From Selenomonadaceae bacterium (GTDB taxonomy: Bacteria > Bacillota > Negativicutes > Selenomonadales > Selenomonadaceae), in the NCBI GenBank assembly GCA_017470715.1, contig JAFUYE010000038.1, positions 1-32,109 of the forward strand: a stretch of DNA of 32,109 bases, in the 5' to 3' direction. Position 1 is the first letter of the stretch. Each line of letters begins with the position of its first letter. Of this stretch, positions 1,021-29,728 are shown one piece after another. The translations under genes and the position numbers were made by a program. The notes beneath the pieces are model-generated. The model made no database searches and was not told the origin of the DNA. It saw nothing but the letters and a program-made list of their open reading frames with translations.

Positions 1021-1090
1021 TTTAGCTTTAAGGTGTAAGCTTTAAGCTTTAAGGATTTTTTCAAAGCTCAAAGCTCAAAGCTTAAAGCTC
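1021..1090 (+). repeat. Heptad repeat array 1 (unit AAGCTTT), inverted arms, in ileS leader
   Basis: The left arm (1021-1055) reads as 7-bp steps TTTAGCT, TTAAGGT, GTAAGCT, TTAAGCT, TTAAGGA. The right arm (1062-1089) is CAAAGCT three times and then TAAAGCT. The arms are complementary and can fold into a long hairpin with a T-rich loop. The array ends six bases before the ileS SD GAGGAGG (1096-1102). The same unit and arrangement occur inside copA at 6597-6679. Confidence 0.85.
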
Positions 1091-1110
1091 CACACGAGGA
1101 GGCAAAAATT

Positions 1111-4100
1111 TTGTTATATCGCAAGGTAGACACTAATTTAAATTTCGCAAGCCGCGAAAAGGAAGTTGAAACTTTTTGGGCGGACAACAACATCGCGCAA
1201 AAAGCAATCGACAATCGCGAAGGTTGCGAAGATTATACGTTTTACGACGGCCCGCCGACTGCAAACGGTCAGCCGCACATCGGGCACGTTTTGACACGCG
1301 TCATCAAAGATTTGTTCCCGCGCTATCACTCAATGAAGGGGCAAAAAGTTTTGCGCAAAGCCGGCTGGGACACGCACGGTCTGCCCGTCGAGTTGGAAGT
1401 CGAAAAACTCATCGGCATCAACGGCAAGGATCAAATCGAAGCTTACGGCATGGAACCTTTTATCAAAAAGTGCCGCGAATCCGTCTGGAAGTACAAAGGC
1501 ATGTGGGAAGAATTTTCCGGCGTCGTCGGATTTTGGGCGGACATGGAGCACCCCTACATCACTTACGAAAATTATTACATCGAATCCGAATGGTGGGCGC
1601 TCAAACAAATTTGGGATAAAGGTCTGCTTTACAAAGGTCACAAAGTCGTTCCGTATTGCCCGCGCTGCGGCACGCCGCTTTCAAGTCACGAAGTCGCGCT
1701 CGGTTACAAGGACGTTAAAGAACGTTCGGCGGTCGTCAAATTCAAAGCCGTTGATGATGACGCGTATTTTCTTGCGTGGACGACGACGCCTTGGACTTTG
1801 CCGTCGAACTTGTGTTTGTGCGTCAATCCGAAAGTCGATTACGTAAAAATTCAAGTCGGCGACACGAAATATATTTTGGCTCAAGCACTTGTCGAAAAAA
1901 TTTTTGACGGCGTTGAAGGCGAACGAACAATTTTGGCGACGTACAAAGGCAAAGACTTGGAATATCGCAAATATGAACCGCTGTATCCGTTCGCGGACGA
2001 AATTGTTGCGCGTTCAGGCAAGCAAGCTCACTACGTCACCTGCGACGATTATGTCACGACCGAAGACGGCACCGGCATTGTTCACTGTGCGCCCGCGTTC
2101 GGCGAGGACGATAACCGCGTTTGTCGCAAATATGATATTCCGTTCGTGCAATTCGTCGACGGCAAGGGCAATATGACTTCCGAAACAAAATGGGCGGGAA
2201 CTTTCGTTAAAGACGCCGACCCGTTGATTTTGCGCGACTTGAAAGAATCGGGCAAATTGTTCAAAGCTCCGCCGTTCGAGCACAGTTATCCGCATTGCTG
2301 GCGTTGCGACACGCCGTTGATCTATTACGCCCGCGAATCGTGGTTTATCAAAATGACTGCGGTTAAAGACGATCTGTTGAAAAATAACGCGAAAGTCAAC
2401 TGGATTCCCCCGACAATCGGCAAAGGACGTTTCGGCGATTGGCTTGAACACGTGCAGGATTGGGGCATTTCCCGCAACCGTTACTGGGGCACGCCGCTCA
2501 ACATTTGGGAATGCAAATGCGGTCACCAACATTCAATCGGCTCAATCGACGAACTCAAAAAACTTTCGCCGAATTGTCCCGACGATATTGAATTGCACCG
2601 CCCGTACATTGACGCGGTAACTTTCCCGTGCGAAAAATGCGGCGGCGAAATGCATCGCGTGCCGGAAGTTATTGACTGCTGGTTTGATTCGGGAGCAATG
2701 CCGTTCGCGCAGTGGCATTATCCGTTCGAGAATCAAAAAATTTTCGAGGAACATTTCCCCGCCGATTTCATCAGCGAAGCCGTCGACCAAACACGCGGTT
2801 GGTTTTATTCGTTGATGGCAATTTCGACGTTGCTGTTCGACGACACGCCGTTTAAAAATTGTATCGTGCTCGGTTTGGTGCTGGACAAAGACGGTCAAAA
2901 AATGTCGAAGTCCAAAGGCAATGCCGTCGCGCCCATGGAAACTTTGCAAAAACACGGTGCCGACGCAATTCGCTGGTATTTTTACGAAAACTCCGCGCCG
3001 TGGTTGCCGAATCGTTTTCATGACGACGCGGTTGTCGAAGGGCAACGAAAATTCCTCGGCACGCTGTGGAATACTTATGCGTTCTTCGTACTGTACGCGA
3101 ACATTGACGACTTTGACGCGACGAAATACACGCTCGATTACGAAAAACTTCCCGTTATGGACAAGTGGCTTTTGTCGCGGCTGAACACGATGGTTAAGAC
3201 CGTTGACGACGCGTTGACGAATTATAAAGTTCCCGAATCTGCGCGGGCGTTACAAGATTTCGTCGACGAACTGTCAAATTGGTATGTCCGCAGAAGTCGT
3301 GCGCGTTTTTGGGCGAAAGGCATGGAGCAAGACAAAATCAACGCTTACATGACGCTTTACACCGCGCTTGTGACGTTGGCGAAAGCTGCCGCGCCGTTGG
3401 TTCCGTTCATCACGGAAAATATTTATCGCAATTTGGTTTGCTCAATCGACAAGAACGCGCCCGAAAGTGTTCACCTGTGCGACTACCCGATTGCCGACGA
3501 AAAATTTATCGACGCCGAACTTGAACGCAACATGGACGCCGTGTTGAAAATCGTCGTGCTCGGTCGTTCGGCTCGCAATGCGTCGAATATCAAAAACCGT
3601 CAACCCGTCGGCAACATGTTCGTCAAGGCGACTCAAACTTTGCCGGAATTTTTCGTGGAGATCATCGAAGACGAATTGAACGTTAAGCGCGTCGAATTCC
3701 GCGACGACATGAGCGAATTTATCCGTTACAATCTCAAGCCGAATTTCCGCGTTCTCGGCAAAAAAGTCGGCAAACAGATGAGTGCCGTTAAATCCGCGCT
3801 TGAAAATGTTGACGGGCTTGCCGCGAAAAATTCTCTCGACAAGACGGGCGAATTCAAACTTGCGCTTGCGGACGGCGAAGTTGTTTTGACGGCTGAAGAT
3901 GTCGAAGTCACAATCTCGCAAACCGAAGGTTTCAACTGCCAGAGCGACGCCGATTTTTCCGTTGCGCTGTCGACGACGTTGACGCCCGAACTCGTCGAAG
4001 AAGGTTTCGTCCGCGAAATTATCAGCAAGATTCAAGTCATGCGCCGCGAAAGTAATTTCGAGGTCACCGACAGAATTAAAATTTTCGCCTCCGAAAGTGA

Positions 4101-4245
4101 AAAGCTCGCCGAAATCATCACCGGCAATTCCGAAGAAATTATGACGGTCACGCTTGCCGACGAGATTGATTTTTCCAATCACCCCAACGCGAAAACTTGG
4201 GACATCAACGGCGAAGAAATTTCTTTGGCGGTCGAAAAAGTTTAA
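1111..4245 (+). CDS. ileS: Isoleucyl-tRNA synthetase
   Basis: Class I aminoacyl-tRNA synthetase (1044 aa) that charges tRNA-Ile in the cytoplasm. The HIGH signature is H56-I-G-H59 and the KMSKS loop is at 597-601. A CP1 editing region (for example AWTTTPWTLPSN) follows the first catalytic half, and an anticodon-binding domain begins around residue 690. CxxC pairs occur in YCPRCGTPLSS, CWRCDTP and CEKCGG. The length is above the roughly 920-940 aa of the E. coli and B. subtilis enzymes and fits the longer eukaryote-like clade (IleS2), which is often naturally mupirocin-tolerant; that property is inferred. The start is TTG at 1111 behind SD GAGGAGG. No T-box leader is recognisable; the leader instead carries the heptad hairpin. 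Confidence 0.98.
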   Translation: MLYRKVDTNLNFASREKEVETFWADNNIAQKAIDNREGCEDYTFYDGPPTANGQPHIGHVLTRVIKDLFPRYHSMKGQKVLRKAGWDTHGLPVELEVEKLIGINGKDQIEAYGMEPFIKKCRESVWKYKGMWEEFSGVVGFWADMEHPYITYENYYIESEWWALKQIWDKGLLYKGHKVVPYCPRCGTPLSSHEVALGYKDVKERSAVVKFKAVDDDAYFLAWTTTPWTLPSNLCLCVNPKVDYVKIQVGDTKYILAQALVEKIFDGVEGERTILATYKGKDLEYRKYEPLYPFADEIVARSGKQAHYVTCDDYVTTEDGTGIVHCAPAFGEDDNRVCRKYDIPFVQFVDGKGNMTSETKWAGTFVKDADPLILRDLKESGKLFKAPPFEHSYPHCWRCDTPLIYYARESWFIKMTAVKDDLLKNNAKVNWIPPTIGKGRFGDWLEHVQDWGISRNRYWGTPLNIWECKCGHQHSIGSIDELKKLSPNCPDDIELHRPYIDAVTFPCEKCGGEMHRVPEVIDCWFDSGAMPFAQWHYPFENQKIFEEHFPADFISEAVDQTRGWFYSLMAISTLLFDDTPFKNCIVLGLVLDKDGQKMSKSKGNAVAPMETLQKHGADAIRWYFYENSAPWLPNRFHDDAVVEGQRKFLGTLWNTYAFFVLYANIDDFDATKYTLDYEKLPVMDKWLLSRLNTMVKTVDDALTNYKVPESARALQDFVDELSNWYVRRSRARFWAKGMEQDKINAYMTLYTALVTLAKAAAPLVPFITENIYRNLVCSIDKNAPESVHLCDYPIADEKFIDAELERNMDAVLKIVVLGRSARNASNIKNRQPVGNMFVKATQTLPEFFVEIIEDELNVKRVEFRDDMSEFIRYNLKPNFRVLGKKVGKQMSAVKSALENVDGLAAKNSLDKTGEFKLALADGEVVLTAEDVEVTISQTEGFNCQSDADFSVALSTTLTPELVEEGFVREIISKIQVMRRESNFEVTDRIKIFASESEKLAEIITGNSEEIMTVTLADEIDFSNHPNAKTWDINGEEISLAVEKV

Positions 4246-4249
4246 ACGC

Positions 4250-5120: not shown

Positions 5121-5189
5121 TTGGCGAACAAAAATTTTCACGGCGGTTGCGTTTTGTGACCGTCAATTTTTTTGGGAAGTGATGACTTT

Positions 5190-7832
5190 GTGGTTAAAGA
5201 AACTTTTGACGTGACGGGCATGAGTTGTTCGGCGTGTTCGGCGCGTGTCGAAAAAGCTGTCGGCAAAGTTGTTGGCGCGGACAATGTCAGCGTCAATCTG
5301 TTGACAAATTCAATGCAAGTCAAATTCGACGAGGCAAAAATTTCCGCCGCGCAGATTGTTGACGCGGTTGTCAACGCGGGCTACGGTGCCAGTCCGAAAA
5401 AAATTTCCGCGCAGAAAAAATCTTCGACGACGACGGAACGCACAATCGACAAAGAAATTTCCGCAATGAAGTTTCGGCTCACGTGGTCGATAATTTTCCT
5501 GTTGCCGACGGTTTATATCGCGATGCATTCAATGTTGCCGTTGCCCGTGCCGCCGATTGTCGCGGAACTGTTTGACGGTCGACAAAACGCCGTGACGTTC
5601 GCATTCGCGCAATTTCTGTTGATACTGCCGATTATGTATCTTAACCGAAAATATTACGTGAACGGCTTCAAAACTTTATTCGCGGGCGCGCCGAATATGG
5701 ATACTTTGGTCGGGCTCGGCTCAATGTCGGCGGCGATTTTCGGAGCGTTCGCCCTGTTCAGAATCGGTCAAGGTCTCGGCACGGGAAATTTCGCGTTGGT
5801 CGACGAATACAGCCGCAATTTGTATTTCGAGTCGGCGGGCATGATTGTCACGCTGATAACCGTCGGAAAATTTTTCGAGGCGCGTGCCAAAGGTAAAACT
5901 TCGCAGGCAGTCGAGAAATTAATTAATCTTGCGCCGAAAACCGCGACTGTTTTGCGTGACGGCAACGAAATTACAATCGCGGTCGAAGATTTGGTTGTCG
6001 GCGATGAAATCCTTGTAAAGCCCGGCGAAAGTTTTGCGGCGGACGGAATTATTTTGGACGGCGAAACTTCCGTTGACGAATCTGCGATAACCGGCGAAAG
6101 TTTGCCCGTCGAAAAAAATATCGGCGACACGGTCACAAGCGGCACGCTCAACAAAAGCGGCTTCGTGAAATTTCGTGCGTCGAAAGTCGGCGGCGAAACG
6201 ACAATCAGCAAAATTATTTCGTTGGTCGAAGAGGCTTCCGCGTCGAAAGCTCCGATTGCCAAACTTGCGGACAAAATCGCGGGAATTTTCGTGCCTGCGG
6301 TGATTGTGATTGCGATTGCGGCGGGAAGTTTTTGGCTTGCGAACGGCGCAAGTGTCGAATTTGCGTTTTCAATCGCCGTGTCGATTTTGGTTATAAGTTG
6401 TCCGTGCGCGCTGGGACTTGCCACGCCCGTCGCGATTATGGTCGGCACCGGCAAAGGCGCGGAGAACGGAATTTTAATCAAGTCGGGCGAATCGCTCGAA
6501 ACGGCGCACGCGGTCGATACAATCGTCGTCGACAAAACCGGCACGCTCACCGAAGGCAAGCCGTTTGTCACCGACATTTTACTTTGCGGCGATAACAGCT
6601 TTGAGCTTGAAGCTTTAAGCTTTAAGGAAAATTCGTCAACCGTGTCCTTTAAAGCTCAAAGCTCACAGCTTAAAGCTTTTCTGCGAATTGCGGCGGCACT
6701 TGAACGCGGCAGTGAACACCCGTTGGCGGAAGCCGTCACGAAATTTGTTGCCGAAAAAAATCTTCAACTTCCCGTTGCGGAAAATTTTCAAGCTGTGTTC
6801 GGGCGCGGCGTTCGTGCAAAAATTGACGGCGTCGAATATTTTGCGGGCAACGAAACTTTTTTGACGGAACTCGGCTTTGACTTGAAAAATCTGCGCGGGA
6901 AAATTTCCAAACTTGCGGACGAGGGCAAAACCCCGTTGATTTTCGCGGACGACAAAAAAATTCTCGGAATCATTGCCGTTGCCGACGTGCCGAAAAAAAC
7001 TTCCGCGCAGGCTGTCAGAGAGTTTCAAAATCTCGGCGCAAGTGTTATCATGTTGACGGGCGACAACGAACGCACGGCGCAGGCTGTCGGCAAAAATCTC
7101 GGCGTCGACAAAATTATCGCGGGCGTTCTTCCCGAAAACAAAGCCGCCGAAGTCGAAAAACTTCAATCGTCGGGGCGCAAAGTTGCAATGATCGGCGACG
7201 GTATCAACGACGCTCCGGCACTTGCGCGGGCTGATGTCGGAATTGCTATCGGTGCGGGCACGGACGTTGCAATCGAAAGCGCGGGCGCGGTTCTTGTTCG
7301 CAACGATTTACTTGACGCGGTCGCCGCAATCAAATTAAGTCGTGCAGTTATGACGAACATTCGGCAAAATTTATTCTGGGCGTTTTTCTACAACGTCGTT
7401 TGCATTCCGCTTGCGGCGGGAATTTTTTACCCTGCGTTCGGAATAAAACTTTCGCCGATGATTGGCGCGGCGGCAATGAGCATGTCGAGTGTGTGTGTCG
7501 TGCTGAACGCGTTGCGGCTGAGATTTTTTAACGTCGAACGTGCACAAACTTTTGACGAAACGCAACACAACGTTGAAGTCCGCGTCGAACAAATTCGGCA
7601 ACAAATTTTCAAGGAGGCAACTCAAATGCAGACAACAATCAAAGTCGAAGGCATGATGTGCAAACACTGTCAAAAACACGTGCATGACGCGTTGGCGAAA
7701 ATGGACGGCGTGACGGCTGTCGAAGTCAGTTTGGAAAACAATTCCGCGACGGTCGACGCCACACGCGAAATTTCCACGGACGAATTCGCCAAAGTTATCG
7801 AAGACGCCGGCTATGAATTAATTAGGAATTAG
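5190..7832 (+). CDS. copA: Copper-translocating P1B-type ATPase with C-terminal CopZ-like domain
   Basis: Exports Cu(I) across the inner membrane using ATP (880 aa). An N-terminal heavy-metal domain has CSAC (C13, C16) in GMSCSAC. Hydrophobic helices follow from about residue 95. The transmembrane metal site is CPC at 404-406. The phosphorylation motif is DKTGT with D448, then SEHPLAEAV and GDGINDAP (669-674). A second heavy-metal domain with CKHC (C824, C827) is attached after residue 812. I choose GTG 5190 because GGAAGTGAT precedes it with normal spacing; a TTG at 5172 has no SD. Two oddities are an in-frame heptad repeat array at 6597-6679, adding about 27 residues between the phosphorylation and SEHPLA motifs, and a perfect SD with ATG inside the frame at 7626. 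The last four residues and the stop come from a heptad array. Confidence 0.95.
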   Translation: MVKETFDVTGMSCSACSARVEKAVGKVVGADNVSVNLLTNSMQVKFDEAKISAAQIVDAVVNAGYGASPKKISAQKKSSTTTERTIDKEISAMKFRLTWSIIFLLPTVYIAMHSMLPLPVPPIVAELFDGRQNAVTFAFAQFLLILPIMYLNRKYYVNGFKTLFAGAPNMDTLVGLGSMSAAIFGAFALFRIGQGLGTGNFALVDEYSRNLYFESAGMIVTLITVGKFFEARAKGKTSQAVEKLINLAPKTATVLRDGNEITIAVEDLVVGDEILVKPGESFAADGIILDGETSVDESAITGESLPVEKNIGDTVTSGTLNKSGFVKFRASKVGGETTISKIISLVEEASASKAPIAKLADKIAGIFVPAVIVIAIAAGSFWLANGASVEFAFSIAVSILVISCPCALGLATPVAIMVGTGKGAENGILIKSGESLETAHAVDTIVVDKTGTLTEGKPFVTDILLCGDNSFELEALSFKENSSTVSFKAQSSQLKAFLRIAAALERGSEHPLAEAVTKFVAEKNLQLPVAENFQAVFGRGVRAKIDGVEYFAGNETFLTELGFDLKNLRGKISKLADEGKTPLIFADDKKILGIIAVADVPKKTSAQAVREFQNLGASVIMLTGDNERTAQAVGKNLGVDKIIAGVLPENKAAEVEKLQSSGRKVAMIGDGINDAPALARADVGIAIGAGTDVAIESAGAVLVRNDLLDAVAAIKLSRAVMTNIRQNLFWAFFYNVVCIPLAAGIFYPAFGIKLSPMIGAAAMSMSSVCVVLNALRLRFFNVERAQTFDETQHNVEVRVEQIRQQIFKEATQMQTTIKVEGMMCKHCQKHVHDALAKMDGVTAVEVSLENNSATVDATREISTDEFAKVIEDAGYELIRN
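6597..6679 (+). repeat. Heptad repeat array 2 (unit AAGCTTT) in frame inside copA
   Basis: The left arm is AGCTTTG, AGCTTGA, AGCTTTA, AGCTTTA, AGGAAAA (6597-6631). The right arm is TCCTTTA, AAGCTCA, AAGCTCA, CAGCTTA, AAGCTTT (6645-6679). The arms are inverted and complementary, as in array 1. The array is read through as coding sequence; every TAA in the units falls out of the copA frame. Related copper ATPases go directly from the VTDI-like segment to the LRIAAALE-like helix here. Confidence 0.85.
7626..7832 (+). CDS. Nested CopZ-like copper chaperone start inside copA
   Basis: A consensus SD AAGGAGG (7611-7617) lies eight bases before an in-frame ATG at 7626. Translation from there gives a 68-aa protein beginning MQTTIKVEGMMCKHCQKH, the size and fold signature of a free CopZ copper chaperone (HMA domain, CxxC at C12 and C15 of this product). 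It is identical to the C-terminal domain of the long CopA. It may be a formerly separate copZ gene that lost the copA stop, or a dual-product arrangement in which chaperone and fused ATPase are both made. Only the sequence signal is seen; separate expression is inferred. Confidence 0.6.
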   Translation: MQTTIKVEGMMCKHCQKHVHDALAKMDGVTAVEVSLENNSATVDATREISTDEFAKVIEDAGYELIRN

Positions 7833-7894
7833 GAATTAGGAATTAGGAATTAGGAATTGTTTCGATGATTTTCAATTACTAATTCCGCATTGCT
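7816..7894 (+). repeat. Heptad repeat array 3 (unit AATTAGG)
   Basis: ATTAGGA is repeated five times (7821-7855), followed by a loop and a right arm AATTACT, AATTCCG, CATTGCT (7874-7894). The segment 7846-7859 pairs with 7873-7886 with one mismatch. The first units encode the last residues of CopA and its TAG stop. The array ends three bases before the SD of the next gene. Confidence 0.85.
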
Positions 7895-7912: not shown

Positions 7913-8152
7913 ATGGAAATTCGCAAAATTGAAATCGGACGCAACTGCTTTTTGGTGGCGGTTGTCGACGAAGAAGAGACCGTTATCACGGCGGGTGCAT
8001 TCAAAAAGCGTGAAGAAGCGGACACGGCGGCGAATATGCTTTTCACCTTTATCACGCACCAAGGCTTGAACGACATCGAGGGCTATGAACCGCCCAATCT
8101 CAAGTTGGCTCAAGTGTGCGCAATGTACTCTCAGCGTTTGAAGATAAAATGA
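7913..8152 (+). CDS. Small conserved-looking hypothetical protein
   Basis: A 79-aa soluble protein that I do not recognise. It has a strong SD AAGGAGG (7898-7904) and an ATG at the right distance, so it is very likely translated. It is predicted to be an alpha/beta protein: a beta-like start (EIRKIEIGRNCFLVAVVD), a charged middle (FKKREEADTAANML) that looks helical, and a C-terminal stretch with a single cysteine (AQVCAMYSQRLKIK). There is no signal peptide or membrane segment. It lies between two AATTAGG-type heptad arrays, downstream of copA, but nothing in it suggests metal binding. No function is assigned. Confidence 0.72.
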   Translation: MEIRKIEIGRNCFLVAVVDEEETVITAGAFKKREEADTAANMLFTFITHQGLNDIEGYEPPNLKLAQVCAMYSQRLKIK

Positions 8153-8183
8153 CAATGGCGAATCAACTTCCGGCAACGCTCCA

Positions 8184-8230
8184 AAGGAATCAGTAATTGA
8201 ATCGCACACATTCCTAATTTCACATTGCCT
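8184..8230 (+). repeat. Degenerate heptad-like array 4
   Basis: GGAATCA, GTAATTG and then CATTCCTAATTTCACATTGCC show the same 7-bp rhythm and AATT/CATTG vocabulary as array 3, but with more decay. The right end overlaps the -35 box proposed for the downstream gene. Confidence 0.45.
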
Positions 8231-11272: not shown

Positions 11273-11312
11273 AATTTTTTTCGTCGCTTGTGACGCGGCG
11301 GGCGGATATTTC

Positions 11313-11379
11313 AATTAGGAGCCAAGAGTTAATTTCGCGTCAACAATTCCTAATTCCTAATTCCTAATTCCTAATTGCT
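11313..11379 (-). repeat. Heptad repeat array 5 (unit AATTAGG), inverse orientation
   Basis: On the plus strand AATTCCT occurs four times in succession (11345-11372), then AATTGCT. A shorter, decayed partner arm AATTAGGAGCCAAGAGTTAATT lies at 11313-11334. It has the same unit as array 3 but in the opposite orientation. It supplies the last codons (IRN) and stop codon of the MBL-fold gene. Confidence 0.85.
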
Positions 11380-13130: not shown

Positions 13131-13163
13131 AATTGTTTGACGTGCACGGCAAGGAGATTTTTT

Positions 13164-14099
13164 ATGGAAGCTGAAACTCTCGACACTGCAAACCAAATCG
13201 AAACTCCAGCGGGCGAATTCGCCGACAAATCGCGAATTATAATTGTCACGGGCATGAGCGGCAGCGGCAAAACTCAGGCTTGCCGATACCTCGAAGACCT
13301 GGGCTATTTTTGTGTTGACAATTTGCCGCCCGTTTTTATTCCGAAATTCGTCGAACTGTGCACGCACGCCACGGGGCATTTCAACAAAATGGTTTTCGTC
13401 GTCGACACGCGCAGTCGCGAATTTTTTGATGACCTTGTTCAAGTTCTCGACGACATGGACAAAGACAATCAAGATTACGAAATGTTGTTTATGGACGCTT
13501 CGGACGACGTAATTATTCGCCGTTACAAAGAGACGCGCCGCCGTCACCCGATGGCTCCTTCGACAAGAATTTCCGACGGAGTTTTCAAAGAACGCACGCG
13601 GCTTGAAAGTGTTCGCGCCAAGGCAACTTACATTATCGACACGTCGAATTTGTCGAAAGTTGAACTGCGCGAAAAAATTCAGCGAATCTTCGGCAATTCC
13701 GACGGCGAAATAATGAACATTGCGGTTTTGTCGTTCGGCTTCAAATTCGGAATGCCGCTTGATGCCGACATGGTACTTGACGTGCGCTTTTTGCCGAATC
13801 CGTTTTACGTCACGGAACTGCGTCACAAGAGCGGAAGTGTGCCCGAAGTCGCCGCGTATATCGAAGAGAAACCGGTCACGCAGGAATATTTGAAACGTTT
13901 GGACGCGTTCATTGATTTTCTCGTCCCGCAATATGTTCGCGAAGGCAAAAGCCAACTCGTTATCGCAATCGGTTGCACGGGCGGAATGCACCGCTCGGTT
14001 TTTGTCGCGAAACACGTTTATGACTTGCTCGCGAAAAAAAGTTACGCCGTGAATTTGGAGCACCGCGACTTGATGAAAAACGACGTGTGGGAGGTTTAG
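13164..14099 (+). CDS. rapZ: RapZ-family RNase adapter / nucleotide-binding protein
   Basis: A 311-aa cytoplasmic P-loop protein. In enterobacteria RapZ directs RNase E to the GlmZ small RNA and so controls amino-sugar synthesis; in Firmicutes (YvcJ) it is linked to competence and cell-envelope metabolism. Walker A is GMSGSGKT (30-37), followed by YFCVDNLPP. The C-terminal domain, with IGCTGGMHRSV, is the family hallmark. I take ATG 13164, behind SD AAGGAGA, rather than the upstream in-frame TTG at 13137, which lacks an SD. The TAG stop is the first base group of the large heptad hairpin that fills the gap to yvcK. Confidence 0.96.
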   Translation: MEAETLDTANQIETPAGEFADKSRIIIVTGMSGSGKTQACRYLEDLGYFCVDNLPPVFIPKFVELCTHATGHFNKMVFVVDTRSREFFDDLVQVLDDMDKDNQDYEMLFMDASDDVIIRRYKETRRRHPMAPSTRISDGVFKERTRLESVRAKATYIIDTSNLSKVELREKIQRIFGNSDGEIMNIAVLSFGFKFGMPLDADMVLDVRFLPNPFYVTELRHKSGSVPEVAAYIEEKPVTQEYLKRLDAFIDFLVPQYVREGKSQLVIAIGCTGGMHRSVFVAKHVYDLLAKKSYAVNLEHRDLMKNDVWEV

Positions 14100-14171
14100 G
14101 AACCAGGGGCTGGGAACTGGGAACCGGTAGGGATTAGTCTAGTCCCTAGTTCCCAGTTCCTAGTTCCTAAA
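14095..14171 (+). repeat. Heptad repeat array 6 (unit GGAACTG/TAGGAAC), about 30-bp inverted arms
   Basis: The left arm runs TTTAGGAACCAGGGGC onward through GGGAACTGGGAACC, and the right arm is CAGTTCCTAGTTCCTAAAA. The arms are nearly fully complementary, with a short centre (TTAGTCTAG). The 7-bp unit repeats GGAACCA, GGAACTG, GGAACCG on one side and TAGTTCC, CAGTTCC, TAGTTCC on the other. It fills the whole space from the rapZ stop codon to just before the yvcK start codon. Confidence 0.88.
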
Positions 14172-14176
14172 AAAAA

Positions 14177-15466
14177 ATGTTTCATTTACTGAAGTGGCTT
14201 TACCCCGGCATGAAAATGAAACGCTGGTTGCTCTTGTTCGCAATCGGCGTCATGATGTTCAGTTTCGGCGGCGCGCTTGCCGTGAATTACGAATATCTCG
14301 GTCGCGCAGAAGAAGAAATTTTCATGTTCGTCTATCGCACGGTCGGCAGTTACAATTACGCGGTGACAATGTTCGTCGGGCTGATAATTTTGCTCGTCGG
14401 CTCGTGTTTAATGCTTTGGTCAACGCGCTCAATCATCCGTTCGATAATCGCCGTGCTTATTCCCGACCGTTCGGAAAATCTCGTTGACTTGATTTATCAG
14501 GAACGCAAACTCGGACGCGGTCCGGCAGTCACGGTTATCGGCGGCGGTCACGGCTTGAGTGTTTTACTGCGCGGAATAAAAACTTCGACGAACAATGTTT
14601 CGGCGGTTGTGACGGTTGCGGACGACGGCGGAAGTTCCGGACGACTTCGCGAAGAACTCGGAATCATCCCGCCGGGCGATTTGCGAAATTGTCTGGTTGC
14701 GTTGGCGGATACCGAACCGCTTATGGAAAAACTTTTCCAATATCGTTTCGAGGGCAACACCGCGCTTGCCGGTCACAGTTTCGGGAATTTGTTTATCGCG
14801 GCAATGAACGAAGTCACGGGCGACATGGAAACTGCGCTCAAAGAATCGTCGAAAGTTTTGGCGGTCAAAGGTCGCGTAATTCCCGCAAGCAAAGAACACG
14901 TGCGACTTGATGCGATTATGACTGACGGCACCGTTGTCGAAGGCGAATCACAAATTCCCGAAGCGCATAAAAAAATTCGTCGCGTGCAGTTGTTCCCGAA
15001 AGAAGTTCCCGCAGTTCCCGCCGCGCTTGACGCAATCGAATCTGCCGACGCGATTATTCTCGGACCGGGCAGCCTGTACACAAGCATTATGCCGAATCTT
15101 TTGGTTGACGGAGTTGCTCACGCGCTGAAAAATTCCAAAGCCGTCAAGATTTACATTTGCAACGTTTTGACGCAACCGGGCGAAACCGACGGATACACTG
15201 CCGCACAACACGCGAAGGCAATTCTTGAGCACACGGGCAACGGCGCGATTGATTATGTGTTGGTGAATTCTGCGCCGATACCCGAACAGATGTGGCAAGG
15301 CACGGGAGCGACGCCCGTCGAAATTGACGAAGACAAAATTAATGCGCTCGGTTGCGGGCTGATTAAAGCTGATTTGATGAGCACGACCGAAGCGGGACGA
15401 CACGACCCCGAAAAACTTTGTGCCGAAGTCATGAAAATTATTTACACGTTCGGCAACAGGCGATAG
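14177..15466 (+). CDS. yvcK: YvcK/CofD-like gluconeogenesis factor with N-terminal membrane segment
   Basis: A 429-aa member of the YvcK family, which binds UDP-sugars and supports growth on gluconeogenic carbon and normal cell shape in Bacillus. Two hydrophobic helices (about 18-36 and 55-75, for example VTMFVGLIILLVGSCLMLW) precede the cytoplasmic Rossmann-like domain. The glycine motif is VIGGGHGLSVLLRG near residue 115, then VADDGGSSGRLRE and PPGDLRNCL. The membrane-anchored form is common in Clostridia and Negativicutes. The start is ATG 14177, where MFHLLKWLYPGMKMKRW resembles relatives. No SD is visible because the heptad hairpin reaches almost to the start codon. A T8 run follows the stop. 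Confidence 0.95.
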   Translation: MFHLLKWLYPGMKMKRWLLLFAIGVMMFSFGGALAVNYEYLGRAEEEIFMFVYRTVGSYNYAVTMFVGLIILLVGSCLMLWSTRSIIRSIIAVLIPDRSENLVDLIYQERKLGRGPAVTVIGGGHGLSVLLRGIKTSTNNVSAVVTVADDGGSSGRLREELGIIPPGDLRNCLVALADTEPLMEKLFQYRFEGNTALAGHSFGNLFIAAMNEVTGDMETALKESSKVLAVKGRVIPASKEHVRLDAIMTDGTVVEGESQIPEAHKKIRRVQLFPKEVPAVPAALDAIESADAIILGPGSLYTSIMPNLLVDGVAHALKNSKAVKIYICNVLTQPGETDGYTAAQHAKAILEHTGNGAIDYVLVNSAPIPEQMWQGTGATPVEIDEDKINALGCGLIKADLMSTTEAGRHDPEKLCAEVMKIIYTFGNRR

Positions 15467-15519
15467 TTTTTTTTCGGTGATTTCGATTCGGGCGATTCGT
15501 GACTTTTGAATTTTTTGTT

Positions 15520-15710
15520 GTTACTTTCTTTGCTTGCCCAAAGAAAGTAACCAAAGAAAGGGCACCTCGCGGGGCGGCTACTCGTTCTTAACATCAATGT
15601 ATCGGCTACGGTAAGCCCGTGTGCCCGCGATAAAACATCCATGTTTTAACCGCGGGCGGAGCTGTCATCCATGACAGCTCCAAATAACGTCCGTGACGGT
15701 CTCTGATTTA
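15520..15710 (+). repeat. Stacked-hairpin dispersed repeat, copy II
   Basis: This fills most of the 273-bp gap between yvcK and whiA. Parts in order: a perfect 13-bp palindromic stem GTTACTTTCTTTG (15520-15532) / CAAAGAAAGTAAC (15539-15551); CCAAAGAAAGGGCAC; a double hairpin GCCCGCG (15623) / CGCGGGC (15657) with inner AAAACAT/ATGTTTT; and a hairpin GGAGCTGTCA / TGACAGCTCC (15658-15681), ending in GGTCTCTGATTTA. Parts two to four match copy I and the reverse of copy III. Confidence 0.8.
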
Positions 15711-15739: not shown

Positions 15740-16624
15740 ATGTCGAGTTACGCTCAAGATGTCAAAAACGAATTGGCGCGAATTTTCGGCGACGAATCCG
15801 AAACTTTGCACGCCGAATTCGCCGCGCTGTTATTTTGCGGTACAAAAATTTTTGACGGGCGTTTGGAATTTGCGACAACCAATGCCGCAGTCGCTCGAAA
15901 AGTCATTTCGTTGACGAAAAAATTTTTACCCGCCGTCAAGCCCGAAGTTGCCGCCGTTCGCCGAAAAAAATTAAACAAAGACTTAATTTATGCCGTGCGA
16001 ATTTTTTTGACGGGCGAAGTGCAAAATTTTCTGGAGCAACTTGACGCGCCCGAATTGCTCAAACGTTCCCGATTTAAAGTTGCGTGGTTGCGCGGCGCGT
16101 TTTTGGCAAAAGGCACGGTCAATCGTCCCGAATCGCAATATTTGTTGCAAATCGTTTCACGCTCGGTTAAAACGGCTCAATTCGTGCGAAAAACTTTGGC
16201 GGCTTTGGACTTCAACGCGGGACTTTATCAACGCAAAAAAAATTTTATCGTCTGGTTGCGCGAAGCCGACGCGATTTGTGATTTTCTCGGCATGATTGGA
16301 GCCGTCAACGCCCTCGAACGTTTTGAGGTTGCGCGCAACTTGAAGGAAATTCGCCTGCAAGTTCATCGTCAGGTCAACATGGACACTTGCGCGCTCAATC
16401 GTGCCGCCGATGCCTCTCAACGCCAGATTGCCGACATAAAAATTTTGATGGCGCGAAATTATCCCGTCACGAAAAAAATCCGTGAGGCAATGGAACTGCG
16501 GCTTGCGAATCCGTCCTGCACAATCAACGAATTGGCGGAAAAAATTTCCTTGAGCAAGGCGGGCATGTGGTCTCGGTTCAAAAAAATTCATCACTTGGCA
16601 AAAAGAATAGCTAATAGGAAATAG
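15740..16624 (+). CDS. whiA: Sporulation/cell-division regulator WhiA
   Basis: A 294-aa DNA-binding protein with an N-terminal LAGLIDADG-like domain and a C-terminal helix-turn-helix. In Bacillus WhiA affects cell division and chromosome segregation; in Streptomyces it is a sporulation regulator. The start MSSYAQDVKNELARIF and the block VNMDTCALNRAADASQRQIADI correspond to family signatures (usually VNCETAN..K), here more diverged. The C-terminal segment INELAEKISLSKAGMWSRFKKI is the HTH. SD GGAGG precedes ATG 15740. It is the usual third gene after rapZ and yvcK. The TAG stop and last residues (ANRK) come from a heptad array. Confidence 0.93.
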   Translation: MSSYAQDVKNELARIFGDESETLHAEFAALLFCGTKIFDGRLEFATTNAAVARKVISLTKKFLPAVKPEVAAVRRKKLNKDLIYAVRIFLTGEVQNFLEQLDAPELLKRSRFKVAWLRGAFLAKGTVNRPESQYLLQIVSRSVKTAQFVRKTLAALDFNAGLYQRKKNFIVWLREADAICDFLGMIGAVNALERFEVARNLKEIRLQVHRQVNMDTCALNRAADASQRQIADIKILMARNYPVTKKIREAMELRLANPSCTINELAEKISLSKAGMWSRFKKIHHLAKRIANRK

Positions 16625-16639
16625 GCAATGTTTTTGCCT
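16606..16639 (+). repeat. Heptad repeat array 7 (unit AATAGGA) with short hairpin
   Basis: Three 7-bp units AATAGCT, AATAGGA, AATAGGC (16606-16626), then a small hairpin AGGCAA (16623-16628) / TTGCCT (16634-16639). It contributes the whiA C-terminus and stop codon and ends just before the SD of the following DUF4446 gene. Confidence 0.7.
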
Positions 16640-17206: not shown

Positions 17207-20200
17207 TTATTCGGCGGCGGAATTTTCTTCGTCGACTGCTTCGTTATCGATGACTTTCAAATCGCGATAATGCGACATGCCTGTTCCCGCAGGAATCAGC
17301 TTGCCGATTATGACGTTTTCTTTCAAGCCGATAAGCGGGTCGATTTTGCCTTTAATCGCCGCGTCCGTCAAAACTCTGGTGGTTTCTTGGAAACTCGCCG
17401 CGCTGAGGAACGAATCAGTTGCCAAAGATGCCTTCGTTATGCCGAGCAGAATCGGTTTTGCGACTGCCGGAGCACGATCTTCCTCAATGGCTTTAGTGTT
17501 TTCCGCCTCGAAAATGTTCACGTCGACATATTCGCCCGGCAAAAATTCCGTGGAGCCGCTGTCTTCGATCTTTACCTTGTGCAACATCTGGCGAACCATA
17601 ACTTCGATGTGCTTGTCGTTGATTTCGACGCCCTGAGACTTGTAGACTTTTTGGACTTCTTTGACGAGGTAGCGGTGAGTTTCTTTGAGACCGCAGATAC
17701 GCAGGATGTCGTGCGGATTTTTGGCGCCGTCGGTGATGTTGTCGCCGGCATGGATTTCGTCGTCGGGCTTAACTTTTGGTTGGATGCCGAAGGGGATCAC
17801 GTATTCGCGACTCTGTTGGTTGTTTAAATCGTGCGGAGTAATTATTACTGTTTTTAAGCCGGTCTTTTCGTCGGTGCCGAAACTGACTATGCCGTCGATT
17901 TCGGCTATTATCGCGTTGTTTTTCGGTTTTCGGGCTTCGAACAACTCTTCGACGCGGGGTAAACCTTGGGTTATATCGCCGCCCGCGACGCCGCCCGTGT
18001 GAAAAGTTCGCATCGTCAACTGCGTACCGGGTTCACCTATCGACTGTGCCGCTATGATTCCGACAGCCTCGCCGACTTCGACCTCGGTTTGATTTGCCAA
18101 ATCGCGTCCGTAACATTTTTGACAAACTCCAAACGGGCTTTTACAGGTCAACACGCTACGGATTGAAACTTTATCGCGCACTTCGCAAATTTTTTGAACG
18201 TTGGATTCGTCAATCATATCGTTGACTTTAGCAATCAAGCAGCCGTCGTCGTCGTAGATGTCCTCCGCCAAAGTTCGCCCGATGATGCGATCGGCAAGTG
18301 GTTCGATGACGCCTTTTTGAGCTTTGAGATGCAAAGTTTGCGCTGTGAACGCGGGCAAATTCAACTCGGCGACACTGCGAATTAAAACTTTGTCGCGCAC
18401 CTCACAAATTTTTTGAAGCTTGGATTCGTCGATAATCTCGTCGACTTTCGCAATCAAGTTGCCGTCGTTGTCGTAGATATCCTCCGCCAAAGTCCGCCCG
18501 ATAATGCGGTCGGTTTGCAACTCGGCAACACTGCGGATTGAAACTTTGTCGCGCACTTCGCAAATTTTCGGAAGATTGGATTCGTCAATCCGGTCGTCGA
18601 CTTTCGCAATCAAGTTGCCGCCGCCGTCGTAGATGTCCTCTGCCAAAGTTCGCCCGATTATGTCGTCGACTTTCGCACTCAAGTTGCCGTCGTCGTCGTA
18701 GATGTCCTCCGCCAAAGTCCGCCCGATGATTCCGTCGGTTTGCAACGCCGCGATTTTTTTTGCGATTCCCGTAGTCAATTTCGTGCCCGCAGGTAAATTC
18801 AACGCCGCAAAATCTTTAGCCAATGTCCGCCCGATATATTTCAAAGCGTCGTGCGCGTCAATTTCCTCAGTCTGTGAACCGCGAGTTTCTTCGACAATCG
18901 CCTCGACATCTATGCCGCGAATGTTGCCCATGCGGATTTGCAGTTCCGAAATTTCTTCCGCGTCCAAAATTGCTTCGGCAAGGTCGCGCTCTATCGGCGT
19001 TTCCGGCTCGTAATCGAAGACCATTTGCGCCAGGTTTTTGCCTATCAGTTCCCGCAAAAATGCTTCCCGCAGGCGTTTGCGTTCAGTTTCGTCCCGCGTG
19101 CCCAATTTGATTACTTCCGAGACCAGCGAATGACTTGCCGCGTTCGGTGCCGTCAAACTCTGTCCGCGCAATGAGATTTCCGGCGTGTTCAGTTCGCCCA
19201 ACAGTTCCAACGCAGCGTCGTCCAAAATCGAATCGGTTGCGATTGCCACTTCGCCGGTTTTCGGGTCGATTACGTCCGCGCCGACAACACGTCCTAATAA
19301 TGCCTCGCTTAACAGTTCCAACGCGTCAAAGGTATCGTTCGCCAGCCGCGCACGAATCAGAGTCAAATTTATCGAACGGATATCGCAATCTTTTTGTCGC
19401 ACTATCACATCTTGCGCTACGTCAACCAGTCGCCGCGTCAAATATCCGCTGTCCGCCGTCCGCAAGGCTGTATCCGCCAATCCTTTGCGCGCTCCGTGTG
19501 ACGAAATAAAGTAGTCGCTAACCGACAAACCTTCGCGGAAATTCGCCGTTATCGGCAAGTCGATTGTTTTGCCCGACGGATCCGCCATAAGTCCGCGCAT
19601 GCCCGCAAGTTGTCTCATCTGCTGTTTATTGCCGCGTGCGCCGCTGTCCGCCATCATAAATATCGGATTGAACGGGTCCATATTCGACATCATCGCATCT
19701 GCCACGCGATTTGTTGCTTCTTCCCACAGCGCGATTACTTTGTTGTAACGTTCCTGGTCCGTCAAAAGACCGCGATTGAAAAACATTTCCACGCGTTTGA
19801 CTTTCGACGACGTTTCAGCGATTATGTCTTTCTTCGCGGGCGGAACAATGACATCCGATATCGCAACCGTCATTCCCGCAATGCAGGCGTAGTGATAACC
19901 CAGTCGCTTTACTCCGTCGATTACTTCAGCCGTCTTCGTCGCACCGAATTTATTAAAACATTCCGCGACCAACTTGCCGAGTTCTTTTTTGCTCATAACC
20001 GTGCCAAGCGTCAATTTACCTTCAGCGTCCCGCTTAAATTGTCGCAGTTCCGACGGCAAAATTTCGTTAAATATCATGCGCCCAACCGATGTCCTGACTA
20101 GTTGCAATTCGCCTTCGTATTCAAGCCGCACAAGTATTTCTGTTTGTAACGACAGGTCACCACTGTCATAAGCCAGCAGCGCTTCGTTGTACGAGCTGTA

Positions 20201-27250: not shown

Positions 27251-27280
27251 ATGAATCACTCCTTCGATTGTGTTACCGTC

Positions 27281-27309
27281 ACGATAGCAAAAAATTTTTT
27301 CGCTGTCAA
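27281..27309 (-). promoter_or_regulatory. Predicted promoter of ugd
   Basis: On the minus strand, TTGACA (27309-27304), a 17-nt spacer and TATCGT (27286-27281), with a TG extension (TGC). Its -35 lies six bases from the -35 of the divergent topB promoter. Confidence 0.6.
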
Positions 27310-27315
27310 AACGCG

Positions 27316-27344
27316 TTGACGTTGGGCGAACGTTTGAATAAAAT
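27316..27344 (+). promoter_or_regulatory. Predicted promoter of topB
   Basis: TTGACG (27316-27321), a 17-nt spacer and TAAAAT (27339-27344). The heptad array begins at the end of the -10 and would form the 5' leader. Confidence 0.6.
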
Positions 27345-27424
27345 TTAAGGGAAAAGGGCAAAGTGACAAGAGAAAAGAGCGACAACAACAACTTCTCCCT
27401 TCCCTCTTATCCCTTCTCCCTTAA
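27344..27424 (+). repeat. Heptad repeat array 8 (unit AAGGGAA), inverted arms, topB leader
   Basis: The left arm reads TTTAAGG, GAAAAGG, GCAAAGT, GACAAGA, GAAAAGA. The right arm (27393-27420) reads TTCTCCC, TTCCCTC, TTATCCC, TTCTCCC, then TTAAAA. The arms are largely complementary around a centre with CAACAACAAC. It sits exactly between the predicted topB promoter and its SD (27429-27435). Confidence 0.88.
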
Positions 27425-27441
27425 AACCGAGGTGAAATGTT

Positions 27442-29664
27442 TTGAGACTTTACATAGCCGAAAAGCCGTCAATGGCGCGGGAACTTGCCAACTGTCTGGG
27501 CAATCCGATTAAATGCAACGGTTATATACAAACCGACGACGGAATTGTTACGTGGTTGTTCGGGCATATTTTGGAGCAGGTGGAGCCCGCCGCTTACGAC
27601 CCGAAATATAAATCGTGGCGTGCGGAAGACTTGCCGATTGTCCCGAAAGTTTGGAAGTTGCAAGTTCGTCCCGACGCCGCGCAACAATTCGACGTTGTCA
27701 AAAGATTAATCGCCAAGGCTGACGAAATTATTCACGCGGGCGACCCCGATCGCGAAGGTCAACTGCTTGTCGATGAAGTTTTGGATTTTCTCGGCAACAC
27801 GAAGCCCGTCAAACGAATTTTGCTTAACGCACTCGACACGGAAAGTATTTTGCGTGCCAATGAAAATCTGCGCGACAACGCCGAATTTTTTAACTTGAAA
27901 CAGTCCGCACTTGCCCGAAGCCGCGCAGATTGGTTAATCGGCATGAATTTATCGCGGGCTTATACTTTGGCGGCACGTCGACGCGGTCACGATATGGTTT
28001 TGCCGATTGGACGCGTGAAAACTCCGACGCTTGCATTGGTTGTGCGCCGCGAACGCGAAATAAAAAATTTCAAGCCCGTCGACTTTTTTACAATTCGGGC
28101 GACGTTCATTCACGCGAACGGCGAATTTACCGCAACATTCAAGCCATCAGAAAAAATGCTCAAGCTCAAAGTTTTCGACGCGGACGGACGATTGATTGAT
28201 AAAAAATTCGCCGACGAACTTATCGAAAAATTTTCGACCGCGCCGCTCGACGGAAAAATTTCTTCGTGCAAGACGACCAAAAAAAAAGAATCACCGCCGT
28301 TGCCGTTTTCGCTGTCGACGTTGCAAATCGCCGCAGGTAAAGCATTCGGATATTCGCCGCAACAAGTTTTGGACGCCGCGCAGAAACTTTACGAAATGAA
28401 GTTGACGACTTATCCGCGTTCCGACTGCGAATTTTTGCCGACGAATCAATTCAAAGACGCGCTTGCAATTTTGTCGCACCTGACAACGTCAACCGACGAA
28501 ACTTTAAAAAATCTTGCCGCAAATTCCAACGCCGCAATTAAAAGCCGTGCATGGAATGACAAAAAAATTTCCGCGCATCACGCAATCATTCCGACGAAAA
28601 ATAAATTGACGCAACCGTTGCCCGCCGTTGAGTTTAATATTTACAACCTTATCGCGAAAAATTACGCCGTGCAATTTCACGACCTGCACATTTACGACGA
28701 AACCGTTATCGTCGTCGACTACAAGGACGAAAATTTTCGCGTGACCGGCAAAGTCGTCAAGCAACTCGGTTGGCGGGAATTTTTTATCGTGTCGAAAACC
28801 AAAGCCGACGCGAAAAATCCCAAGTCGAAGTTGAAGCCGCCCGACGAAGACGAAAGCGAAAATCCGTTGCCGCAAATGAAAACGGGCGACACCGTCACGC
28901 ACAAAAAATCCGAACTCAAAAAAGGTGTGACGAAACCGCCGTTGCCGTTCACCGCCGCAAGTCTCGTGCAGGGCATGAAAGATATTCACAAGTACGTTAA
29001 AAATCCCGACGCGCAAAAACAACTTAAAGACGTTTACGGAATCGGCACGGAAGCGACACGGGCGGCGATTATCGACGACTTGATTCAGCGGGAATTTTTG
29101 CGTGTCGGCAAGAAAAAAATTTTGCAACCGACGGCACGCGCTTACCTGCTGATTGACGCCCTGCCCGATGAAATGACTTATCCCGACGCAACGGCAATTT
29201 GGGAAGATAAATTGCACTCGATGAGCGACGGCGACGGTACGTTAGAAAATTTTTTGGACGGGCAAGTTAATTTCACTCGCGAACTTGTCAACGACGCAAT
29301 GACGGCAAATTTTTCCGTTGCCGAAGGTACTTTCAAATGTCCGAATTGCGGCAATGCTTTGGTCAAGCTACGCGGCAAAAACGGTGAATTTTGGAGTTGC
29401 ACAAATTACCCGACGTGCAAGACCGCTTTCGACGACGATAAAGGCAAGCCAAATTTTCCTGACGAAAACGCGCCGAAATGTCCGACGTGCGGCAGTGCTT
29501 TAGTCAAACGTCACGGCAAAAACGGCGACTTTTGGGGTTGCTTAAATTTTCCGCGTTGCCGAACGACTTTCGACGACAAAAACGGCAAGCCCGATTTCGA
29601 CGGCAAGAAAGGTTACGTTCCGATGTCCTCCGAAGAGTTTATCGCCATGACTTCCGATGATTGA
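27442..29664 (+). CDS. topB: DNA topoisomerase III (type IA)
   Basis: A 740-aa type IA topoisomerase that relaxes or decatenates single-stranded or negatively supercoiled DNA. The toprim domain starts with IAEKPSMARELA (E7) and has D101, D103 and E105 in HAGDPDREG. The active tyrosine is Y324 in LTTYPRSDCEF. Two C-terminal zinc ribbons begin at C633 (CPNCGNALVK) and C680 (CPTCGSALVK), each with a second cysteine pair about 20 residues on. The second ribbon resembles the first, a simple internal duplication. TTG 27442 with SD GAGGTGA is used; the nearby ATG at 27437 meets a stop after two codons. Confidence 0.96.
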   Translation: MRLYIAEKPSMARELANCLGNPIKCNGYIQTDDGIVTWLFGHILEQVEPAAYDPKYKSWRAEDLPIVPKVWKLQVRPDAAQQFDVVKRLIAKADEIIHAGDPDREGQLLVDEVLDFLGNTKPVKRILLNALDTESILRANENLRDNAEFFNLKQSALARSRADWLIGMNLSRAYTLAARRRGHDMVLPIGRVKTPTLALVVRREREIKNFKPVDFFTIRATFIHANGEFTATFKPSEKMLKLKVFDADGRLIDKKFADELIEKFSTAPLDGKISSCKTTKKKESPPLPFSLSTLQIAAGKAFGYSPQQVLDAAQKLYEMKLTTYPRSDCEFLPTNQFKDALAILSHLTTSTDETLKNLAANSNAAIKSRAWNDKKISAHHAIIPTKNKLTQPLPAVEFNIYNLIAKNYAVQFHDLHIYDETVIVVDYKDENFRVTGKVVKQLGWREFFIVSKTKADAKNPKSKLKPPDEDESENPLPQMKTGDTVTHKKSELKKGVTKPPLPFTAASLVQGMKDIHKYVKNPDAQKQLKDVYGIGTEATRAAIIDDLIQREFLRVGKKKILQPTARAYLLIDALPDEMTYPDATAIWEDKLHSMSDGDGTLENFLDGQVNFTRELVNDAMTANFSVAEGTFKCPNCGNALVKLRGKNGEFWSCTNYPTCKTAFDDDKGKPNFPDENAPKCPTCGSALVKRHGKNGDFWGCLNFPRCRTTFDDKNGKPDFDGKKGYVPMSSEEFIAMTSDD

Positions 29665-29689
29665 AAAATTTTTTCAAGCGGTGTATAAT
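29661..29689 (+). promoter_or_regulatory. Predicted sigma-A promoter of ald
   Basis: TTGAAA (29661-29666), a 17-nt spacer and a perfect TATAAT (29684-29689). The -35 overlaps the topB stop codon. Confidence 0.75.
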
Positions 29690-29700
29690 CCCGTGCTATC

Positions 29701-29728
29701 AATTACGCATTACGCATTGCGCATTGCA
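29701..29728 (+). repeat. Heptad repeat array 9 (unit ACGCATT), ald leader
   Basis: AATTACG, CATTACG, CATTGCG, CATTGCA in four consecutive 7-bp steps. There is only one arm, with no clear complementary arm. It lies between the ald promoter and its SD GGAGG (29733-29737). Confidence 0.75.

Follow-up and report, generated by a model that had tools for sequence, protein, structure and literature searches.

We analyzed a 32,109-nt stretch of DNA from a Selenomonadaceae bacterium (JAFUYE010000038.1; hereafter the window), which is contig C1 of a 2.9-Mb assembly in 155 contigs (95% complete) and carries imperfect tandem repeats with a 7-bp step at several loci. The object behind these repeats is a compact element of about 65–85 bp, consisting of a G-rich arm of about four heptamers, a loop of about 10–25 nt, and an inverted arm rich in C. 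Members of one unit family within a genome are homologous copies of each other over their whole length, loop included. The explanation that we favor, with a probability of roughly 60%, is one of small hairpin elements, dispersed and non-autonomous, with arms turning over 7 bp at a time. Its observed basis is that whole elements are present or absent at orthologous sites and that full-length copies of one unit family lie at unlinked places. Copies differ by substitutions in the heptamers and by heptamer number. A new copy would be derived from an existing one in a single step, after which the arms would turn over in the 7-bp register through slippage or unequal exchange together with the spread of an altered unit. 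As a result, units would drift, new unit families could arise, and one site might later hold another family. The elements would persist mostly between a stop codon and a Shine-Dalgarno sequence or start codon because the RNA would fold on itself there; at the rapZ–yvcK junction, folding would restore the spacing between the Shine-Dalgarno sequence and the start codon, which lie on either side of the hairpin. A recurring layout, full-length copies, and three or four unit types at a single gene junction recast the heptamer excess as the trace of one definite mobile object, whose gains can be counted and whose enzyme is missing.

Here, G000 denotes the window's own genome, other G numbers denote the genomes of relatives, and L numbers denote sequence stretches (L:position). 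The 78-bp element at the rapZ–yvcK junction of G078 was found at seven other places in that genome with 90–95% identity over 74–81 bp, and the matches ended near the ends of the element (55 matches in all, some of which are one place on both strands). At the two places read, left-arm length and single heptamers differed and the right arm was common, and the copy in L337 carried extra heptamers, an in-register change. In G000, the element at L010:7758 was 94% identical to one in L028 over 97 bp, and a relative of the element inside copA (6594–6679 of the window), matching over the full length, lies at L047:10247 (86% identity over 87 bp). For 20 AATTAGG elements of G000, hand-picked from 55 rows after exclusion of nested rows, duplicates, and one poly-T loop, the loops gave a mean pairwise score of 5.73 against a maximum of 4.89 in 300 GC-matched random sets. 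In G016, the same mixed-unit element (GGTGTCA left, CCTGAAT right) occupies two neighboring sites without a counterpart in G033; judged by eye, the flanking genes are presumably ribosomal protein genes. A preliminary description of the window had proposed a 7-nt stepping process rather than transposition of one element, a contrast that fails in view of these full-length copies and alike loops.

Of 603 orthologous-site comparisons, 123 were listed (mean flank identity ≥84%, with a single entry for each pair of element and genome, some sites recurring through overlapping loci), and presence, absence, and unit change were all found, as the preliminary description had suggested looking for. The rapZ–yvcK junction is filled in six species, with 77, 80, 84, 86, 91, and 129 nt between two anchors, and empty in G020, G066, and G036, with 5–6 nt between them. 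The units are AGCTGAT/AGCTTAT in G021, GGAACTG in G000, AGCTTTx in G078 and G016, and AATTAGG in G063 and G022. The count is three or four types, depending on whether the AGCTGAT-like units in G021 are regarded as a form of AGCTTT. The claim that period and symmetry are kept where the unit is not thus holds across six species at one junction. G078 and G020 are 96–97% identical over 2.5 kb around this junction (83–88% in one other region compared), and the difference in presence is therefore recent. The units of the G078 insertion are nevertheless already diverse, with CTTTAAG and CTGTAAG in one arm and CTTTGAG and CTTAGAG in the other. Since unlike units occur in both arms of a recent insertion, copying of an existing element fits better than slippage or fold-back at the site.

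The period was measured using a lag scan (+1 for a match, −2 for a mismatch, score ≥12) and Tandem Repeats Finder (TRF). In the window, where periods 4–15 were scored, the lag scan gave eight runs at period 7, one at period 6, three at period 14, and none at any other period; the three period-14 runs are harmonics of the same arrays. TRF agreed on the period-7 arrays, and 30 order-3 Markov sequences simulated from the window contained no period-7 run. The arrays and the two genes at the filled junction are as follows.

1017–1090, no strand: two-armed element of AAGCTTT/GAGCTTT type between the HAD hydrolase gene and ileS; both detectors; RNA fold z −4.7.
6594–6679, no strand: two-armed AGCTTT-type element, in frame within copA (copper P-type ATPase, 5172–7832).
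7816–7894, no strand: AATTAGG array of five units with a weak right arm; both detectors; folded.
8176–8230, no strand: degenerate AATTAGG-type remnant (by eye); neither detector.
11310–11378, no strand: AATTCCT right arm (AATTAGG on the minus strand) with a weak left arm; both detectors; array absent in G016.
14098–14170, no strand: two-armed GGAACTG/GGAACTA-type element at the rapZ–yvcK junction; both detectors; fold z −6.8.
16606–16639, no strand: weak AATAGGA repeat 3′ of whiA; neither detector; differs in G016.
27344–27424, no strand: two-armed AAGGGAA-type element; TRF; fold z −3.4.
29701–29728, no strand: single ACGCATT array upstream of the alanine dehydrogenase gene; both detectors; absent in G016.
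13137–14099, plus strand: rapZ (NCBIfam NF003828), its stop codon at the left edge of the element.
14177–15466, plus strand: yvcK (NCBIfam TIGR01826), its start codon to the right of the element.

Nine loci had been listed in the preliminary description. Six (at 1021, 6597, 7816, 11313, 14095, and 29701) passed both detectors and the one at 27344 passed TRF only, with 75% matches and both arms, so that seven of the nine are arrays by at least one detector, while 8184–8230 and 16606–16639 passed neither; these two are degenerate at best. The further statement that most are two inverted arms applies clearly to 1021, 6597, 14095, and 27344; the loci at 7816 and 11313 have one weak arm, and that at 29701 is a single arm. 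The six elements that were folded (1021, 6597, 7816, 11313, 14095, and 27344) each span about 70–85 bp.

Compared with G016, the element at 1021 is common to both genomes with altered units and loop, those at 6597, 11313, 27344, and 29701 are absent, and that at 14095 is represented by another unit family. At 27344 the G016 site is empty; the G000 element of about 80 bp stands in place of 3 nt, with no target duplication. G016 is also empty at the site of L010:7758, where G000 carries an imperfect flank duplication of 16–19 bp, and at L037:14764 it carries array-free sequence of about the same length. The units at L010:7147 and L037:2586 differ between the two genomes, and an in-register change was seen at a site where G016 has ATTACGC/ATTACGA and G000 has AATTCCT. 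Inside copA, the distance between two conserved points is 24–36 nt in 28 of the 29 orthologues read and 99 nt in G000; in G074 it is 48 nt, occupied by a heptamer array of another unit (GGAAATG type). The copA reading frame ends inside the array at 7816 (7816–7832), so that its stop codon is supplied by the heptamer array; no array was present at the copA gene end in G016. Between this array and the remnant lies a 79-aa ORF (7913–8152) with heptamer sequence on both flanks, which is absent at the orthologous place in G016. This ORF was considered as cargo and rejected: among the fetched sequences it was found in the window's genome only, and it had no Pfam or NCBIfam match.

The two-armed layout was then quantified. 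In the G000 stretches, 26 of 35 neighboring array pairs were inverted under a strict rule and none was direct; the other nine include near-self-complementary AAGCTTT pairs and pairs with unlike units. The left arm was richer in G than in C in 25 of the 26 inverted pairs in G000 and in 16 of 18 such pairs from relatives. In both arms, the G-rich strand reads toward the loop (in other phyla, the search pattern itself dictates this polarity, which carries no weight there). Among 43 two-armed AATTAGG elements of the genus, four heptamers were present in 25 left and 28 right arms. The mode was likewise four per arm in the Selenomonad, Oscillospiraceae/Clostridia, Bacteroidota, and unnamed-row sets, the non-genus sets having been drawn by a pattern that demands two exact units per arm, and the median total length was 66–77 bp across seven sets. 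A fresh 773-kb sample yielded ten elements, with four heptamers in six left and seven right arms. The claim that period and symmetry are kept where the unit is not is supported here too: arm length peaks at four in most sets, and the two arms carry different units at L013:4688, L021:15361, L027:4338, and L015:8166. At L034:6362–6647 and L038:69–207, elements are duplicated within larger tandem duplications.

The period-7 excess extends beyond the window. In 20 stretches picked regardless of arrays (274,749 bp; periods 2–15), 36 runs were found at period 7 against 0–3 at other periods, except 14 (21 runs); in 20 stretches picked for AATTAGG arrays (332,469 bp), the numbers were 62 against 0–5, except 14 (41 runs). 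The first claim of the preliminary description, that period 7 stands out, is thus borne out in the window (8 against 0–1, period 14 aside) and in unselected sequence, and the scan proposed for it, run on genome samples, gave a clear excess over periods 5–9. The other claim about the arrays, that each locus has its own unit, was overstated. In a census of 41 sequences that yielded 106 arrays, two of these arrays being poly-C contig starts, AATTAGG accounted for 55; AAGGGAC, AAGCTTT/GAGCTTT, AATGAGG, AGGAGTT, GGAACTA, and others made up the remainder. Types also recur within the window, AAGCTTT at two loci and AATTAGG at two or three. Two period-8 runs were seen in G025 stretches, and the end of a copA orthologue in L101 (G034) shows by eye a step-8 array (AGTTGGAT-like) against step 7 in sister species.

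The word AATTAGGAATTAGG had 303 overlapping matches in the window's genome and its reversed control word had none. It was present in 24 of 60 genomes, comprising the window's own and, with between 1 and 162 matches each, 23 of the 36 others in its genus, and in none of 23 genomes of other genera; G026 holds the reversed word instead, 86 times. No period-7 run was found in G003 (87 kb), G006 (100 kb), or G017 (40 kb). The genus, spanning species with hundreds of matches to none, is well suited to a search for the mobilizing enzyme by gene content.

Several results weigh against small mobile hairpins as the explanation. Target-site duplication is not the rule, the flank similarity at the same locus being 6.37 against 6.09 between loci (n = 51). 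No Y1 transposase (PF01797) was detected in the array-rich genomes G000, G015, G016, G020, G022, G024, G032, and G078. Nor was a transposase, as an autonomous parent with the same ends would carry, recognized in 11 intervals between heptamer ends, in parts of genomes, when the first 60 residues of the longest frame were inspected by eye; the ORF starts in these intervals looked like host genes. The difference between G078 and G020 may reflect loss in G020 instead of gain in G078, both being drafts in many contigs. For the element at 27344, the fifth of the genome that was sampled yielded only weak matches (77% over 65 bp). Element size is not strict: one-armed arrays, which lie outside the arm count, reach 75 nt (L028:3876 and L012:5348), the Chloroflexi peak at four units left and three right, and a mixed set (n = 8) at three left and two or four right. 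Some one-armed arrays at gene ends look locally seeded, as at the 3′ end of copA, where GAATTAGTTAGA is expanded to AGTTAGG in G063 and G018. Loops were also compared between families and sister species, using 19 of the loops above with 5 and 6 others, likewise hand-picked. The six sister-species loops were not clearly nearer to the G000 loops than controls (64 of 1000 as high), and no conservation across phyla was apparent by eye in the 30 loops printed. From these loop sequences, descent of one element across species does not appear to be supported, either between phyla or between sister species. A common loop of the AGCTTT and AATTAGG families was weak (19 of 1000 control sets as high) and was dropped as evidence.

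The strongest alternative, which we nonetheless regard as unlikely, is birth in place, in which polymerase slippage in a 7-nt register starts from a short native seed and a template switch then produces the inverted arm. It would explain single arrays at copA 3′ ends that continue a native TTAG in phase and rapZ–yvcK heptamers that are in phase with the stop codon TAG/TGA (both by eye), as well as arms of different units at one locus and the array and non-array alleles of equal length at L037:14764. However, complete two-armed elements are present or absent as wholes, the recent G078 insertion has arms that are not uniform and do not mirror each other, the number of heptamers shows a peak at four with no fall-off, and full-length copies exist elsewhere in the genome. 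Mirror identity between the arms did not even reach the random value of 5.99, being 5.78 in one register and 5.75 in the other. MutS_V matches were found in 60 of 60 genomes, which also led us to reject loss of mismatch repair as the cause of array-rich species.

Less probable still is an RNA-level function, in which the hairpins are selected regulatory or stabilizing mRNA structures whose unit is free because only the fold matters. All ten sequences folded were more stable than the mean of their own shuffles (z −2.4 to −6.8), and placement is consistent with a role in mRNA: long open frames (stop to stop, ≥150 aa) cover 87% of the G000 sequence scanned, yet among 83 element clusters only 9 lie deep within such a frame, the others being intergenic (36) or overlapping a frame end (38). 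At the rapZ–yvcK junction, the Shine-Dalgarno sequence lies to the left of the hairpin and the start codon to its right. Before the junction, GGGAGG is present in 5 of 6 filled species and GGGAAG in 3 of 3 empty ones; G016 has GGAGG to the right of the hairpin instead. Positions 9 and 10 outside the arms favor C (45 and 46 of 102), which from the sequence we read as CCTCC, the complement of the Shine-Dalgarno sequence.

Against a selected fold, the mean stability of the RNA hairpin in 37 genus elements was lower than in every one of 60 permutations of their own heptamers, and opposite units avoided matching. The latter test took in the elements whose arms both have four units (19 of 43 in the genus set and 4 of 10 in the fresh set). 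Opposite units agreed in 11 cases where 17.5 were expected (P 0.010, n = 19), with no agreement at units 2 and 4 in that set, and pooling gave 15 cases where 24.8 were expected (P 0.00075, n = 23). This avoidance was spotted after the fact, and the fresh set of four elements was without power, unit 4 matching once. It was also seen in Oscillospiraceae/Clostridia at unit 2 (0 of 8 against 4.0 expected), and not in Bacteroidota or unnamed rows. Avoidance of long perfect hairpins would produce such a mismatch. Moreover, arms at some loci are non-complementary, sister species lack elements at the same junctions, and G003, G006, and G017 have none in the 87, 100, and 40 kb covered. Rfam gave no match at the gathering score in the window, and a known RNA family was rejected as the identity of the element.

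Two enzyme-based alternatives are hardly credible. One is telomerase-like addition: heptamers would be added to both ends of a break by a bacterial reverse transcriptase copying an RNA template, much as DRT10 synthesizes tandem repeats. The inward G-rich strand matches the polarity that arises when two telomeres fuse head to head, small deletions are seen at 27344 and in copA with no target duplication, DRT10 is a known enzyme with variable repeat length (PMC12632851), and RVT_1 matches occur in array-rich G000 (two) and G022 (one). On the other hand, no RVT_1 match was found in array-rich G015, G016, G020, G024, and G032 (divergent reverse transcriptases below threshold and missing contigs could escape), G017 has 14 matches but no AATTAGGAATTAGG and no array in 40 kb, and whole elements are copied with their loops. 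Of the 60 genomes, 20 had an RVT_1 match; the search made no use of a DRT10 model. An iterating reverse transcriptase, one of the generators named in the preliminary description, is thus not supported, since RVT_1 does not track the arrays, and we rejected it. The single G000 match above the cut-off (L012:17046–18476) looks by eye like a diversity-generating retroelement; near it lies a protein (19198–19971) with an aromatic-rich C-terminus and DUF6273. Repetitive extragenic palindromic elements (REP/REPIN) moved by the Y1 transposase RAYT would match in size, hairpin form, copy number, and intergenic placement, but arms here are heptamer arrays and Y1_Tnp, found in 7 of 60 genomes, is in none of the eight array-rich ones, so that RAYT was also rejected as the mobilizer.

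REP/REPIN and miniature inverted-repeat transposable elements (MITEs) are small, dispersed, hairpin-forming, non-autonomous, and intergenic, with conserved sequence ends and a RAYT or DDE transposase; REP elements pair a palindrome of 20–40 bp with a GTAG or CGTC tag. The present elements resemble MITEs in their terminal inverted repeats and dispersed near-identical copies (seven others at 90–95% in G078), but differ in having no target-site duplication of fixed length (3 nt replaced at 27344, an imperfect 16–19 bp at L010:7758); they differ from both in arms of heptamers with a changing unit and in the lack of a Y1 transposase. We conclude that they behave as dispersed miniature elements with heptamer-array arms. 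Short tandemly repeated repetitive (STRR) heptanucleotides were reportedly described in cyanobacteria by Mazel in 1990, and Mrazek is said to have noted a heptanucleotide excess in prokaryotes in 2007, with slippage as an idea. STRRs share with the present arrays heptamer units and the 7-nt excess, and are not known to have been described as two-armed elements of fixed size. Their slippage model, as we read it, has no preferred unit number, whereas two-armed AATTAGG elements prefer four.

STRRs, which the preliminary description had named as the nearest precedent, are a fair comparison, but the Xanthomonas pairs (PMC4692102) and the Nostoc P6b stem (PMC4476775) come nearer. Reports of a heptamer excess in bacterial genomes go back to 2007, with no consensus on its cause (as cited in PMC4679880 and PMC4692102). 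GGGAATC heptamers of Xanthomonas are mostly intergenic, the majority with four units, and form 70 and 75 convergent inverted pairs in two genomes (Rehm 2015, PMC4692102), with strong variation in length and sequence between close species. They are alike in having two opposite-strand arrays of about four units close together; the difference is one unit family per genome, discussed as simple repeats and G-quadruplexes, and the passages covered give no whole-element copies, unit change at one site, or layout across phyla. In the P6b stem of the Nostoc trnL intron, seven-nucleotide repeats of two classes (TDNGATT and NNTGAGT) were replaced repeatedly with the fold kept (Kaasalainen 2015, PMC4476775); this concerns one locus in a group I intron, is phylogeny-based, and raises mobile elements as a possibility only. 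TAACTGA repeats in Beggiatoaceae, Cyanobacteria, and Bacteroidetes (169 sets, one "indirect"; MacGregor 2015, PMC4679880) likewise lie in many intergenic regions before start codons and are patchy across phyla, but they are direct repeats for which translation regulation was proposed. DRT10, a defence reverse transcriptase, writes tandem repeats from a short template (PMC12632851), but in the passages covered its products are free single-stranded repeats, not chromosomal arrays. Inverted heptamer arrays and heptamer-class replacement at one locus are thus already in print (PMC4692102 and PMC4476775, respectively). Among the open-access papers listed by the literature searches, none described this element in Selenomonadales or these units as a two-armed element. 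Worth following are the recurrence of the layout in several groups, the presence of three or four unit types at a single junction, and the missing mobilizer.

The layout of two AATTAGG units, 5–35 bases, and two CCTAATT units was found in at least 116 stretches of a species collection. Among the 80 matches listed were Selenomonadales, Oscillospiraceae, Bacteroidota, Chloroflexi, Gemmatimonadota, Acidobacteria, Latescibacteria, Kiritimatiellota, and Victivallales. Some of the listed Selenomonadales/Selenomonadaceae records came from goat and sheep rumen or reticulum, and the host of the window is very likely an uncultured member of the Selenomonadaceae living in gut or rumen. The listed isolates, Litoribacter, Sediminibacterium (including Sediminibacterium roseum), Chitinophaga (including Chitinophaga hostae), and Cellulophaga, are all Bacteroidota; outside Bacteroidota, the listed matches were metagenome assemblies only, in which misbinning is possible. 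One could tentatively propose a cross-phylum class of mobile hairpins recognized by geometry (two inverted arms, about four 7-bp steps, and the G-rich strand inward) and not by sequence, an extension that we hold to be possible but rather doubtful. If it were true, the unit would be free to change while the element stays mobile.

Gene names in the window were checked for ten ORFs by profile matches (Pfam/NCBIfam), which covered HAD hydrolase, ileS, the copper P-type ATPase gene copA, rapZ, yvcK, whiA, topoisomerase III, and alanine dehydrogenase; the match of a polyprenyl synthase-like ORF was below the cut-offs. Three further features were noted. At 15482–15690 lies a separate high-copy repeat of about 200 bp (actttctttg...caaagaaagtaac) with many matches in the eight relatives searched, and an AATTAGG element at L026:9865 adjoins by eye a sequence similar to it. 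At 18362–18727, tandem repeats of 156 and 69 bp lie inside a long ORF, an in-frame repeat expansion; from its position and sequence we take this ORF to be rpoC. The right end of the contig (31970–32109) recurs in several relatives and is probably the cause of the contig break.

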